A stretch of DNA of 64,000 bases from Sulfobacillus thermotolerans (GTDB lineage Bacteria > Bacillota > Sulfobacillia > Sulfobacillales > Sulfobacillaceae): positions 2,604,001 through 2,668,000 of the forward strand of contig CP019454.1 of NCBI GenBank assembly GCA_002951815.1, in the 5' to 3' direction. Below, piece by piece: positions 672 through 6,808 of this stretch (its first letter is position 1; each line of letters starts with the position of its first letter). The notes under the pieces are model-generated. The model ran no database searches. It worked only from the letters and a program-made list of their open reading frames with translations, and had not been told where the DNA came from. The translations under genes and the position numbers were made by a program.

Positions 672-1904
672 GTGAATGCCTATCGGCGGCTGATCGCCAA
701 TCGCGTCTTCGTTATCTATTGGGGTGGGTCGACCCTTGTGCAGTTGGCCTTACAGTTCGTCACCATTGCACTCGCCTGGTTTGTGCTCAAGACTACCGGG
801 TCCTCCATTCGCGTCGCTTTCGTATTGGCGGTCATTTCCGTTGCGCGCATGGCTACCAGCCCGTTTATCGGTTACCTCATCGATCGCCTCCCACGCCGGG
901 CATTAATGATCCTCGACAACACGGGCCAAATGATTCTCTATGCGTCCGTGCCCGTGATGACGTGGATGCATGTCCTAACCTTTCCGATGTTGCTCGCCGT
1001 GGTGGGGGCCGCCGCGGCGTTGTCACCGCTATCCATGATAGGACGTGGCGTCCTCTTACCGAACATTGTTCCCGATGAAGATTTAGAGCCTGCCAACGGA
1101 CTATCCCAATTACGCAGCAGCATGGTGTCCTTACGTGGGCCCGCACTGGGCGGGATATTGGTGGCGTTCCTCGGGGCACCAGGGACGTTGATGATCACTG
1201 CTGGTTGCTATGTAGCGTATGTCGGATCCTTGCTGGCGATTCCAGCGGGGAAATACCATGCGGTGCAGGATGACCGGTCTTCAGCTGATAGGTCTCCACG
1301 GATAAATCCCTGGCAGTTTCTTCGGAACAGCCAGGTGCTCTTGATCATTGGCGTGGTCACGCTGTTCTTTAACATCACCTACGGTCCCTTAGAGCCAGCA
1401 CTACCGGTGATGGTATTGCGGGTCTTTCATGCAGGAGCCTCTACGTTAGGTCTAATCTGGAGTAGCTTCGCGGTCGGGTCGTTGCTGGGGACGTTGGTGT
1501 GGGAGCGGCTTCGGCCACAGTGGAATCTGCGTTTTGTCATCACGGGGGTAATCGTCGGCTGGGGCCTTTTCAGCGGCATGGTGGGTCTGACAAATCATCC
1601 TTGGCAGGCGATGGCCATGATGTTTTGCGGGGGGATCACGTACGCGCCCTACAACATTGTGGCTGCGACGTGGCAACAGCGATTGATTCCCGATCATATG
1701 CGCGGTACGGTCTTTGGCACGATGCAGTCGGTGACCAGCGCGGGACTTCCGGTCGGACAACTCATTGGCGGACTGGTTGTCAGCGCGGCCGGTGCCGGAG
1801 CGACGATTGCAATGGGGAGAGCCGCCACGGTGCTCCTTGGACTGGTCGTGGTGTCGCTCCGTGCGCCATGGGCCCGTTTACCGACTGCAAACATGTCTCG
1901 GTAG
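672..1904 (+). CDS. MFS transporter, drug-exporter type
   Basis: 410-residue major facilitator with about 12 hydrophobic segments, expected in the cytoplasmic membrane. The motif A loop between TM2 and TM3 is visible as GYLIDRLPRR (about residues 67-76). The overall pattern resembles the MFS_3/EntS-like exporters of small molecules and drugs; the substrate cannot be read from the sequence. The GTG start has AAGGAG eight bases upstream. It is the first of two MFS exporters that flank a short unknown gene pair (2103-2712). It could be a multidrug pump or a dedicated exporter for a product of this cassette. Confidence 0.85.
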   Translation: MNAYRRLIANRVFVIYWGGSTLVQLALQFVTIALAWFVLKTTGSSIRVAFVLAVISVARMATSPFIGYLIDRLPRRALMILDNTGQMILYASVPVMTWMHVLTFPMLLAVVGAAAALSPLSMIGRGVLLPNIVPDEDLEPANGLSQLRSSMVSLRGPALGGILVAFLGAPGTLMITAGCYVAYVGSLLAIPAGKYHAVQDDRSSADRSPRINPWQFLRNSQVLLIIGVVTLFFNITYGPLEPALPVMVLRVFHAGASTLGLIWSSFAVGSLLGTLVWERLRPQWNLRFVITGVIVGWGLFSGMVGLTNHPWQAMAMMFCGGITYAPYNIVAATWQQRLIPDHMRGTVFGTMQSVTSAGLPVGQLIGGLVVSAAGAGATIAMGRAATVLLGLVVVSLRAPWARLPTANMSR

Positions 1905-2102
1905 TTACGGTGTCGATGGCCAGATCAACTGGCCGACGATTATCGTTTGCTCCCATATGCGACCAGCATCCAAGTTCCGGCAATGACTCGATCAACACAA
2001 AACGCTTCCATATTGCCGGACAGGGATGGGCCGCGGACCAATCAAGGAATCCGGATACCCAAAATAAATAAAAACAAATCTGTCACTCCGTGGAGGCATT
2101 CC

Positions 2103-2582
2103 ATGGGGTTAGAAACGGCCTTAGCGGATAATGGGGACCAGTATCCCGTTGTTGTGGATGCGGACATGCGCGTTATCCCGGAAATTTTCATATTCGCCAA
2201 CTTTCTCTGTGGCACCAAACAAGCCTCCCCCAATACCGTAGTGATACTAAAGTGGGTTGGAGCCACGGTATTAATCGACCGGGTCACCCCAACACTTCAA
2301 GTTCGGGGGTGTGTCACCGCTGCGCCTCCAATTTTTCTGAAGCAAATAATTGGGGAATGGCTACACGAGTTAGAACACTACGAACAGGAGACATCCACGT
2401 GGTTTACCCAGCACTGGGTTCCCTTTGACCTGTCAGCACACACCTCGGTGACTCAATTATTACGTGACACAGACCGCGCGGCATTTTACCATATCTCGCC
2501 CGACGACCGCGCCGTAGACCTTCAGCAAGCTCTTCGCATTGTTCGAGAAGGCCCCCTAATACCAATCGCTTTGGTCCCGTAA
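2103..2582 (+). CDS. hypothetical protein upstream of the short peptide gene
   Basis: 159-residue protein that I do not recognise. The frame is open further upstream (from 1947), but GGAGG six bases before the ATG at 2103 sets this start. The N-terminal part has the phrase VVVDADMRVIPE followed by a segment with SPNTV, faintly like the N-terminal core-binding region of tyrosine recombinases, but no catalytic domain follows. The C-terminal half is acidic and Trp/His-containing, with no hydrophobic segments. The stop is 13 bases before the 38-codon gene at 2596, which has its own ribosome binding site, so the two look co-transcribed with the exporter at 2728. It might be a recombinase-derived fragment or a peptide-associated protein; both are guesses. 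Confidence 0.55.
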   Translation: MGLETALADNGDQYPVVVDADMRVIPEIFIFANFLCGTKQASPNTVVILKWVGATVLIDRVTPTLQVRGCVTAAPPIFLKQIIGEWLHELEHYEQETSTWFTQHWVPFDLSAHTSVTQLLRDTDRAAFYHISPDDRAVDLQQALRIVREGPLIPIALVP

Positions 2583-2595
2583 AGGAGCTAACTAA

Positions 2596-2712
2596 ATGAT
2601 AAAATTGGAACGATATACGCTCAACGGCGGAGTCTTCTTACACCGTTGGGTTCCCCCACCCCCTTTTCGGCCTGGTACTCTAGCGTCAGATGTGGGATGG
2701 AGCGCATTCTAA
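2596..2712 (+). CDS. 38-residue peptide gene coupled to an MFS exporter
   Basis: Short open frame starting at an ATG with AGGAG about 8 bases upstream. Its TAA overlaps the AAGGAGG of the MFS gene at 2728, so translation of the two is probably coupled. The peptide begins MIKLERYTLNGG and continues with an aromatic and proline-rich half containing HRWVPPPPF and ending GWSAF. It has no transmembrane segment. A Gly-Gly after a short charged leader is compatible with a processed peptide, and the stop/ribosome-site overlap is equally compatible with a leader peptide that tunes exporter translation. I know no family for it. Confidence 0.55.
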   Translation: MIKLERYTLNGGVFLHRWVPPPPFRPGTLASDVGWSAF

Positions 2713-2727
2713 GGAGGCCCAAACCCG

Positions 2728-3951
2728 ATGACTAAGAATGTGGTCCTATATGTTTTCACGGACACTTTGGCCTATGGTTCAGACGTGGTCAGTTCCATGG
2801 CCACTGCGCTGCTTGCCGTCGATCTCGGCCGCAGTAGCGTCCAGTCGGGACTCATCCTCTTTTCGGCGTCGATTCCCTACCTGCTCTTTGGCCTCGTGGG
2901 GGGCGTGGTTGCAGATCGCGTTGATAAACGTCGCCTGATGATGGGGTGCGACCTGGCCCGGGCCACGGTGCTGGCCTTCATTCCCTTATTGGCGGCCTTC
3001 CATTGCTTGACGGTTCCCGTCCTCATAGGACTCTTGGTCGTATCGACGACCGCCCGCGCCTTTTATTTCCCCGCCCGTAAGGGGATCACGCCGGATTTGG
3101 TTGCGGACGATGTGTCATTGAGTCAGCTGAATCTTTCGCTCAATGGCCTCGAAAGCTTGGGGAGTATCATCCTGCCCGCCTTAGGGAGTGTCATGCTGCT
3201 GTGGACTCATGCTGTGCCCGACCTCTTCTGGATCCCCGTCACTACGTTATTGGGGTCGGCGCTGGCGGTCTATCTCCTCCGTGTGCCCGAGTCGCGGCCA
3301 ACCCTTGGCGCTACACCGTTAAACGATTTACAGCAGGGGCTTGGCGTGGTCTTCTCGCACGGGTCTGCCCTGCCGTACCTTGTCGCCGCCTTTGCCACGG
3401 CCATTATGGCAGAGGCTGGGGTGATAAAAATCGCGTTGCCGAAGATATTGAGCGCCATGCAGCTGAACCACAACGTCTCTTACGGGTTTGCGATAGGGTT
3501 GATGGCCGCCGCAGAAGTGGGGATGTCCTTTTTATGGGGCACGCGGCGGGGGAGTCGAGTACCCCCATGGATCTTCGGGGGCTATGCCGTCCGCGCGGGA
3601 GGCTTGGCCTTGTTGGCCCTCGCTTTAGACCTCGAGAGTCTGCCTTTGCTCATCGGCGCGGTGATCGTGCAGGGCATCGGGATGCCGATGAGCGGGCCTC
3701 CTCTGACCACGGCGCTGCAAATGGCGACGCCGGGACCTTTGATGGGCAAAGTGATGGCCATTCGCTCCACCATCGGCAACCTATCCGATGGGGTATCTTA
3801 TTTACTCATTGGGGGCTTTCTCGAAGTGTTGTCGCTTGACCGGGTATTGTGGTTGTGCGCGACGTTAGCCGGCCTGTCGGCCCTCACCTTTTGGATGTTA
3901 TGGTCTAGACATGCTGTAAACCCATCACCGAAAAGGGGGCAAGTAGAATGA
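2728..3951 (+). CDS. MFS transporter (MFS_3 type)
   Basis: 407-residue membrane exporter with about 12 hydrophobic segments. Motif A is well kept as GGVVADRVDKRRL (about residues 58-70). The sequence resembles the macrolide/EntS-like MFS_3 group; direction of transport and substrate are inferred only from that group. A strong AAGGAGG overlaps the stop codon of the 38-codon gene. Its last codons overlap the next gene by ATGA (3948-3951), so exporter and FMN reductase form one unit. Confidence 0.87.
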   Translation: MTKNVVLYVFTDTLAYGSDVVSSMATALLAVDLGRSSVQSGLILFSASIPYLLFGLVGGVVADRVDKRRLMMGCDLARATVLAFIPLLAAFHCLTVPVLIGLLVVSTTARAFYFPARKGITPDLVADDVSLSQLNLSLNGLESLGSIILPALGSVMLLWTHAVPDLFWIPVTTLLGSALAVYLLRVPESRPTLGATPLNDLQQGLGVVFSHGSALPYLVAAFATAIMAEAGVIKIALPKILSAMQLNHNVSYGFAIGLMAAAEVGMSFLWGTRRGSRVPPWIFGGYAVRAGGLALLALALDLESLPLLIGAVIVQGIGMPMSGPPLTTALQMATPGPLMGKVMAIRSTIGNLSDGVSYLLIGGFLEVLSLDRVLWLCATLAGLSALTFWMLWSRHAVNPSPKRGQVE

Positions 3952-4508
3952 AGGTGTTGCTGTTGTCGGGCAGTGCGCGGTTCCCGTCCCATACCCGCTC
4001 CCTTCTCGACGCGGTGGCTGCCGAATTGGGGCGGTTGGGAGTGAACACCGTGACGTGGGACTTGGCAAGCGACCCGTTACCGGAGGCTTTGGCGGATTTT
4101 CATCGGGCTCCGGATGCTATCGATCATCCGCAAACACAACGATTTGTGCGGGAAGCTATGCAAGCCCATGCGTTCGTTTGGGGATCGCCCAATTATCATA
4201 ATTCGTATTCCGCACGCCTGAAAAATGCTCTCGACACCTTGAATTATGACTATTTTGAGCAAAAGCCAATCGGCCTTGTGACACATAGCGGAGGTATTAT
4301 GAGCACGCAAGCCGCTGACCATCTTCGCATTGTCGCCCGAGGGCTATTGGGCATGGCGATCCCCACCCAAATTGTCTCTTGCGACTCCGATTTCACACCC
4401 CAACCCGATGGAACCTATATCGTAACCGCCTCGGCCCTTCAACGTCGTATCGGGAGATTCTCTGCGGAATTAACCACAATGGCCAAACTTTTATCCGGCG
4501 GGGATTGA
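3948..4508 (+). CDS. NAD(P)H-dependent FMN reductase family flavoprotein
   Basis: 186-residue flavodoxin-fold protein of the FMN_red family. The FMN-phosphate loop is GSARFPSHTR (residues 8-17), and the second flavin contact is GSPNYHNSYSARLKNALD (79-96), very close to the family motif. Such enzymes reduce flavin, quinones, azo compounds or metals with NAD(P)H in the cytoplasm. The start overlaps the MFS stop by four bases, so it is translationally coupled to an exporter. That pairing suggests redox modification or detoxification of an exported compound, but this is inference. Confidence 0.85.
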   Translation: MKVLLLSGSARFPSHTRSLLDAVAAELGRLGVNTVTWDLASDPLPEALADFHRAPDAIDHPQTQRFVREAMQAHAFVWGSPNYHNSYSARLKNALDTLNYDYFEQKPIGLVTHSGGIMSTQAADHLRIVARGLLGMAIPTQIVSCDSDFTPQPDGTYIVTASALQRRIGRFSAELTTMAKLLSGGD

Positions 4509-4618
4509 TGACACCGTACGTAACGCGCGGGCGGGAGGCCGACGACTGGATGTTAGTCTAAATTGTGGACACCTTGAACTCGGGGATGATACGCTAACTC
4601 CCATTGAGGTGAATTGCC

Positions 4619-4906
4619 ATGGCCAAAAAATATGATGCCGCGTTTAAAGCGCAAGCGGTGCAATTAGTGACGGAGCTGAAGAAGCCGATTGCTGAGGTCG
4701 CCCGCGATTTAGGCATTCCGGACACGACGCTCCCCCAATGGTTGAAAAATGTGCGGCAGCATCCAGACCGCCCGTTTGTGGGCAGTGGAAAACTCCGGCC
4801 GGCAGACCAGGAGGTCCACGATTTACCGCGGCGGATACGAGATTTGGAAGAAGAGAATGCCATTTTAAAAAAAGCGATGCGCCTCGTCGCCAACGATCGG
4901 AAGTAA
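4619..4906 (+). CDS. IS3-family transposase OrfA
   Basis: 95-residue DNA-binding subunit. It has an N-terminal helix-turn-helix (AKKYDAAFKAQAVQLVTE onward, with IAEVARDLGIPDTTLPQWLK) and a C-terminal leucine-zipper-like DLEEENAILKKAMR, as in IS3/IS911 OrfA. GAGGTGA lies before the ATG. A run of seven A followed by G near its end (about 4867-4874) is the kind of slippery site used by IS3 elements for a -1 shift into orfB. OrfB is destroyed here, so the protein cannot form a working OrfAB transposase. Confidence 0.88.
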   Translation: MAKKYDAAFKAQAVQLVTELKKPIAEVARDLGIPDTTLPQWLKNVRQHPDRPFVGSGKLRPADQEVHDLPRRIRDLEEENAILKKAMRLVANDRK

Positions 4907-4943: not shown

Positions 4944-6353
4944 GAATGCCCCATTTTTCGTGGAAATTGAAACTAGCGATCCTGATGGCTCTCTGGTTGA
5001 ATAGAGAGTGCTGAACCCATCTTAAGGAGGAATCGCTAGTGACTACCCGTATAAAGAAAAATACGATGGCCGAACAGTCTCTCACCCTGCCATGGATCGA
5101 TATTTTACAGGATGCCGAAGACTTCTTATTGGCTCTATCCCTCCGGGTCGGATTGCCGGTGTTGCAACAGATGATGGCCGTGGAAGTGGAGCAGTGGGCC
5201 GGTCCCAAAGGCCGGCACGATCCTTAGCGTCAAGCCGTTCTACACGGAACCGAAGGCGGGAGCGTCTTTTTAGGCGATCGCAAAATCCCTATCTCGCACC
5301 CGCGGGTGCGAGCGGCCGATGGCTCGGAAGAAATTCCCTTAGACACCTACCATCAGTTTCAGAACACCATGCTAACCACCCAAGCGGTGTTGGAGCGGAT
5401 GCTGTATGGCCTCGCGAGCCGCCAACAAAGCCATGCCAACGCGGCCTTCGAGGCGGCGATGGAGCAACCGGGCCCCAGCAAAAGTACCGTCAGCCGCCGC
5501 TTTATCCAGGCTACGCAGCAAGCCTTGGACCGCTTCTTGCAGCGCCGGTTAGATGACCGGACGTGGGTTTTCGTGATGATCGATGGGTTACGCATAGCGG
5601 ACCATCTGGTGGTGGGCGCCTTAGGGATTGATGCGGACGGGCACAAACGCGTCTTGGGATTGGTCGAAGGGGCGACAGAAAATCATACCGTGGTCATGGC
5701 CTTATTGCAGGATCTCATCACCCGCGGCCTGACGGCCGCGCAGGGATTACTCGTAGTTATCGATGGCGCCAAGGCCTTAGCCAAAGCGGTACGCGAGGTC
5801 TGGGGGGATCAGGTCCTCATCCAACGTTGCCAGATTCATAAACAACGGAATGTACTCGATCACCTGCCGAAATCGGCCGAAAATCGGGTCCGCCAGCGCT
5901 TACGGAAGGCGTATCAAGAACCGGATGCGGACACAGCCGCACAGGCATTAGAAGTGCTCGCGAAAGAGTGGGAACGGGACCATCCCGGCGCTGCTGGGAG
6001 TCTCCGGGAAGGACTCGCCGAAACCTTCACTGTCCATCGATTGGGCCTTCCGGGCCTCTTGCGCCAAACGTTGGCGAACACCAATGCCATGGAGTCCATC
6101 AATAGTCAATGGCGGACCCATGCCCAGAATGTCAAACATTGGACCAATGGACAACAAGTCTTACGCTGGTTGGCATCCGCGAGCTTTTTTATCGAAGACA
6201 CGTTGACGTGGATCCCCGGCTATCGCGAGATTCCCTTGTTGCAAACGGCCTTAAAAGCCACGTGTTCCAAAACGCCGGAACAAAAAGCCGAGCAAATCGG
6301 TTAAATCACGCGAAAGGATACGCTAGCGAAATTCCACGACGCGTGGGACAACC
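4944..6353 (+). mobile_element. IS256-family insertion sequence (defective)
   Basis: Element with one transposase gene flanked by imperfect inverted repeats. The left repeat contains TCGTGGAAATTGAAACTAGC (from 4958) and the right one, read on the minus strand, contains TCGTGGAATTTCGCTAGCG (from 6339). Similarity extends outward to about 4944 and 6353. I see no convincing 8-9 base target duplication, so the exact ends are approximate. The left side joins a broken IS3 orfB and the right side a broken nitrilase gene, suggesting rearrangement after insertion. Confidence 0.7.
5039..6304 (+). pseudogene. IS256-family transposase interrupted by an in-frame amber codon
   Basis: A mutator-type transposase frame from a GTG preceded by AAGGAGG runs to 6304. 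It is broken by one TAG at 5225-5227, inside the segment GPKGRHDP-stop-RQAVLHGTEGG. The frame is the same on both sides, so this is a point nonsense change, possibly CAG to TAG, and not a frameshift. Downstream features of the family are present: VFVMIDGLRIADHLVVGALG, the RCQIHKQRNVLDHLP segment and NAMESINSQWRTH. Full length would be about 421 residues, normal for the family. Unless TAG is suppressed, the element is inactive. Confidence 0.8.
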
Positions 6354-6359
6354 TCACCC

Positions 6360-6771
6360 ATACAATCCCGATTCACTGCCGTGGACTTGAGGAATGTGCA
6401 CTTTGCGGAATTTTCCGAGATAACTGCCGTCTCCATCAATCACGGCAACCGTATTGTAATAAACCCCTGGCATCTCTTCCTCATAGAGCGGCACAATGAG
6501 CACCATATTATAGTGCGGCCAGTTTCTGCATCAAGCGAATCGTTGGTCCTTCCGGAACTTTCTCGGCAGCAGCATACCAACGACGATCCTGCTCGGCAGC
6601 AAAGTATGGGGCAAAAAACAATTCTTGGAGGCAAAGAATGTTCACGGCCTGATCCCCGGCTTGCTGAATCCATTTCACATGTTTCTCGATTGCAGCCGCT
6701 TTATGTCTTTCCACATCGTGCTCTCCCGACAGTTCATGTCGCAATTGTAGCAGTCCCGCACGCACTTTCAT
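6360..6771 (-). pseudogene. nitrilase-superfamily hydrolase, truncated and frameshifted
   Basis: From the ATG at 6771 the frame encodes ICLQELFFAPYFA-like and AEQDRRWYAAAEKVPEGPT segments (the catalytic Glu region and family context of N-carbamoylputrescine amidase/beta-ureidopropionase proteins). It stops after 87 residues. One frame over it resumes with YNMVLIVPLYEEEMPGVYYN and GKFRKVHIPQV (catalytic Lys region). The catalytic Cys region and everything after are missing because the gene meets the IS256 right end near 6353. It is a clear remnant of a C-N hydrolase that no longer makes an enzyme. Confidence 0.78.
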
Positions 6772-6808
6772 TTCCCATCCTCTTTTCTCGCTACATAGTG
6801 GGGATCAG

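Follow-up and report, generated by a model that had tools for sequence, protein, structure and literature searches.

A probable mobile exporter-reductase operon behind a decaying upstream gene in Sulfobacillus thermotolerans

Results

Organization of the locus

Sulfobacillus thermotolerans is an acid-loving bacterium from mines. The locus lies in a stretch of 64,000 nucleotides of its genome, which was analysed as a whole (hereafter the window) and whose positions are used throughout. The original prediction, made from the window sequence, had described five genes running in the same direction: two MFS exporters, a 159-residue protein, a 38-residue peptide and an FMN reductase. An open reading frame check recovered all five frames at their positions (Table 1). 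The spacing of the last four was also exact, with gaps of 13 and 15 bases followed by a 4-base overlap (ATGA), and Pfam agreed with the naming of both exporters and of the reductase.

Table 1. Features of the locus, in window positions.
Feature	Position	Strand	Remarks
MFS1 exporter	672-1904	+	410 aa; Pfam MFS match; outside the cassette
159-codon frame	2103-2582	+	159 aa from ATG; also open from TTG 1947
38-codon frame	2596-2712	+	38 aa, proposed peptide; judged not a conserved gene
MFS2 exporter, drug:H+ antiporter-like	2728-3951	+	407 aa; Pfam MFS_1, E 6.8e-28
NADPH-dependent FMN/azo/quinone reductase	3948-4508	+	186 aa; Pfam FMN_red, E 1.5e-30
Insertion-sequence end and transposase OrfA (HTH_Tnp_1)	4555-4906	+	Pfam PF01527, E 3.9e-12
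Short frame before the Mutator-type transposase	5039-5226	+	no Pfam match
Mutator/IS256-type transposase, without N-terminus	5306-6304	+	Pfam PF00872; covers only positions 107-366 of the 379-position profile
Carbon-nitrogen hydrolase in two frames (6508-6768 and 6357-6506)	6357-6774	-	consecutive parts of the profile

The two exporters and the reductase

Both exporters scored well above the gathering score of the MFS_1 profile (33.4 bits), with 90 bits for MFS1 and 98 bits for MFS2. They also aligned along the full TIGR00900 (2A0121) profile of Mef/Tap drug:H+ antiporters, with E values of 1.6e-49 and 5.5e-39, respectively. However, the scores were far under the curated cut-offs of this type (134 vs 320 bits), so that its substrate cannot be transferred to the exporters of the window. 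MFS2 had no close characterised match.

Among 34 genomes of the family, MFS1 was matched at E 1e-60 or better in 15, on contigs other than those carrying MFS2 (contig 101 vs 147 in genome G026, 91 vs 30 in genome G029). The DNA homology of MFS1 with a further relative, G003 (77.8%), extended from 658 to 1959 and thus ended about 55 bases past the MFS1 stop codon, before the cassette. MFS1 belongs to the wider genome background and is unlinked to the MFS2 cassette, which starts after it; a single unit of all five genes was not confirmed.

MFS2 was found at more than 75% identity in 3 of the 34 family genomes, its only close orthologues being two intact genes, one in G005, which belongs to the same genus (81% protein identity), the other in G026, from another genus (77%). 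Their divergence was biased towards synonymous changes, third codon positions dominating. More remote relatives were present in G017 (40%) and, with a broken frame, in G029 (49%); a reductase frame was not seen beside either of them.

The reductase scored 106 bits against the FMN_red profile (gathering score 24). Its best sequence matches in the PDB were the azo/quinone reductases AzoR and YhdA, with which it has this domain in common, as it has with SsuE, MsuE and ArsH. Unlike true members of the last three families, it stayed under their curated NCBIfam equivalog cut-offs (48 vs 164 bits for SsuE, 53 vs 212 for MsuE and 38 vs 292 for ArsH), and the sulfonate or arsenic genes of these systems were not seen alongside it. 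An intact reductase was present in G005 only, with 81% protein identity, and it again overlapped the exporter by ATGA. In G026 the reductase is truncated, the homology stopping within the gene at window position 4078. On the strength of these two intact copies, MFS2 and the FMN reductase appear to form a real two-gene unit. In the main text of a proteomics study (PMC7409299), no FMN reductase and no MFS protein is mentioned by name.

The G026 copy (L026, 6352-8271) is a cassette fragment cut at both ends, in the upstream frame and in the reductase, with the MFS gene intact. The gene neighbourhood is otherwise unrelated, with an IclR-like regulator frame, recognised by eye, on one side.

Mobile-element setting

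On the 3' side of the reductase, an insertion-sequence end is followed by an HTH_Tnp_1 transposase frame and a truncated Mutator-type transposase. The insertion-sequence end is 83% like positions 721-762 of G005 contig 9. The Mutator-type element (5039-6304) is probably incomplete, since its transposase frame starts at profile position 107 and the preceding frame is unmatched. In G005 the cassette is carried by a 6.2-kb contig together with rve and IS66 transposase remnants, so that insertion-sequence debris lies near MFS2 in two of the three carrier genomes (the window and G005). This debris, together with the distribution over 3 of 34 genomes, leads us to infer that the MFS2 cassette was acquired horizontally.

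Beside the Mutator-type transposase, on the opposite strand, a carbon-nitrogen hydrolase gene is apparently disrupted.

The 159-codon frame

The length of the two upstream frames was compared with chance expectation by dinucleotide shuffling of positions 1905-2727 (823 bases). A plus-strand frame of at least 38 codons occurred in 99% of the shuffles and one of at least 159 codons in 1.6%; the 38-codon frame is therefore unsurprising and the 159-codon frame mildly surprising. An ATG or GTG frame of at least 30 codons with a Shine-Dalgarno site was obtained in 7%.

Pfam and NCBIfam gave no match for the 159-residue protein, and its one hit in PHROGs, to a family of unknown function, was at chance level (E 0.027). 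Upstream of MFS2, DNA homology with the window starts at 2475 in G005 and at 2359 in G026, and both frames could thus be compared directly. The homologous DNA was present upstream of the exporter in both relatives; the intact 159- and 38-codon frames were not. Over the aligned C-terminal part, the 159-codon frame was interrupted in each relative by a stop codon and a 1-base deletion, the deletions lying in different places. The residual protein similarity with G026 was 62% over 59 residues, and the ending PLxPIALVP was common to all three genomes. On the window's own branch, the C-terminal part showed six synonymous and four non-synonymous changes (0/3/7 over the codon positions; p 0.02 against the expectation of one in four), a pattern that looks like that of a gene under constraint.

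Codon usage was gene-like over the first 86 codons (0.159), while the last 73 scored below 95% of real segments. No counterpart of the first 86 codons was detected in genomes of the phylum, viral contigs, phages or plasmids, and no further relative of the whole frame in about 400 phylum genomes or in the same three other sets. A profile of the three C-termini gave only chance matches in the PDB (E > 0.2); in 154 genomes of the class it recovered the three known sequences and one at E 0.009, taken as chance. AlphaFold on the lone sequence was uninformative (pLDDT 39). A reading of the N-terminus as a tyrosine-recombinase/integrase fragment was dropped, the best E value being 2 against the four Phage_integrase loci of the genome and 0.54 in a search of the genome itself. 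The 159-codon frame, lost in the relatives, may here be either a lineage-restricted orphan gene that is still working or a freshly dying pseudogene.

The 38-codon frame and the spacer

Searches of Pfam, NCBIfam and PHROGs all left the 38-residue frame unmatched. Matches at E up to 1 were obtained in 50 of 61 genomes, all attributable to chance except that of G005 beside MFS2. Conservation of this frame between relatives had been set beforehand as the test of the predicted peptide gene, and the frame failed it. In the gap-free first 20 codons, eight codons past the start differed between the window and G005, none of them synonymously. In G026 a TAG stands at codon 18, and beyond about codon 20 indels separate the window from both relatives. 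Pooled over the three branches, 3 changes in the frame were synonymous and 15 were not, compared with 170 and 126 in MFS2 (Fisher p 0.001); the counts for the frame are small, as the upstream DNA is present in only three genomes. Its codon-usage score (-0.076) was lower than that of 95% of real segments of 38 codons (5th percentile -0.040). One point favours translation: the start codon is at the same position in all three genomes (ATG, TTG and GTG), and the Shine-Dalgarno site AAAGGAG is kept in two of the three, being lost in G005. Nothing in these comparisons indicates a conserved peptide.

The DNA of this region was nevertheless better conserved than the four-fold sites of MFS2 (82% vs 59% with G005 and 72% vs 48% with G026, p about 0.001 in each case). 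At 2596-2655 and in the matching stretches of the two relatives (L025 and L026), it is thus the DNA and not the protein frame that is kept. The similarity of the 159-codon C-terminus above four-fold sites is accounted for by past coding constraint, which does not account for that of the 38-codon region. This suggests some constraint on the upstream DNA that neutral decay does not explain. The region is a possible control element (promoter or operator), and shifts of codon preference between genomes could lie behind part of the excess. Folding of the upstream RNA was like that of shuffled sequences in the three genomes (z-scores from -1.0 to 1.6), no Rfam family was detected over 1850-4700, and the single promoter-like match on the plus strand (2464-2492) was weak.

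Discussion

We consider it probable (about 0.7) that the locus is a horizontally acquired operon of an exporter and an azo/quinone-type reductase standing behind a decaying upstream gene. The unit would consist of two genes transcribed together, in which the proton-antiport-type exporter MFS2 is probably coupled in translation, via ATGA, to a flavin-dependent NADPH azo/quinone-type reductase. In the simplest reading of their function, the two proteins would act as a reduce-and-export pair that detoxifies and expels a redox-active or aromatic compound. The upstream DNA would hold the 3' portion of an older gene, open over 159 codons in the window and broken in both relatives, and the 38-codon frame a by-product of the spacer, without a conserved peptide. 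The suggestion of a drug-resistance cassette with a leader peptide stands in part, with the adjacent exporter-redox pair, the overlap kept in G005 and the mobile setting, and is not supported as regards a conserved leader. The locus is thus an ordinary find, an exporter-reductase pair of a known kind. A candidate peptide system is struck off, with a plain mobile gene pair in its place, and the case illustrates that the remains of degraded genes, where they precede an acquired operon, can mimic a tight cassette when a single genome is read.

The order and spacing of the frames are all that speaks for a small modified-peptide or signalling system, which would be made up of a 38-residue precursor, the 159-residue protein for its maturation, the exporter and the flavin enzyme. 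Such a system is highly improbable, as the exporter is conserved and neither the precursor nor the 159-codon frame is. The nonsense codon, the indels and the missing synonymous excess are not those of a RiPP or secreted-peptide precursor; Pfam and NCBIfam gave no maturation domain for the 159-residue protein, and the exporters are general MFS proteins, not dedicated ones. Less unlikely, though still doubtful, is the reading of the 159-codon frame as a working orphan gene that belongs to the cassette, for instance as a regulator or an accessory protein, and was secondarily lost in the relatives; such a gene would be compatible with the exporter-reductase core. Its length, its gene-like first 86 codons and the changes on the window's branch argue for it. 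Against it are the poor score of its last 73 codons and its isolation among the genomes and mobile elements searched, and the single-sequence AlphaFold model says nothing.

Alternatively, the upstream stretch might be a cis-acting control region, where translation of the 38-codon frame, and not its product, sets the expression of the exporter. The partly kept start and ribosome site and the excess DNA conservation are consistent with this, as is the overlap, in the window, of the stop codon TAA of the frame with the Shine-Dalgarno site AAGGAGG of the exporter. However, this overlap is missing in both relatives, one of which has lost the site of the frame itself while the other carries a nonsense codon in it, and neither the folding energies nor Rfam point to a structured leader; we regard this reading as rather unlikely. 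That the frame encodes a lineage-specific leader or small protein which evolves fast, has a conserved start, is coupled to the exporter and regulates it by being translated seems more unlikely again. Leader-peptide control of resistance genes by attenuation, as of the erm/cat type, relies on a short frame that is translated and on alternative hairpins that sequester the ribosome site downstream. Compared with such leaders and with peTrpL (PMC7298713), the window has neither a conserved peptide nor folding beyond that of shuffles, and the frame is broken in the relatives; what it shares with them is a short frame, with a ribosome site of its own, directly upstream of the exporter.
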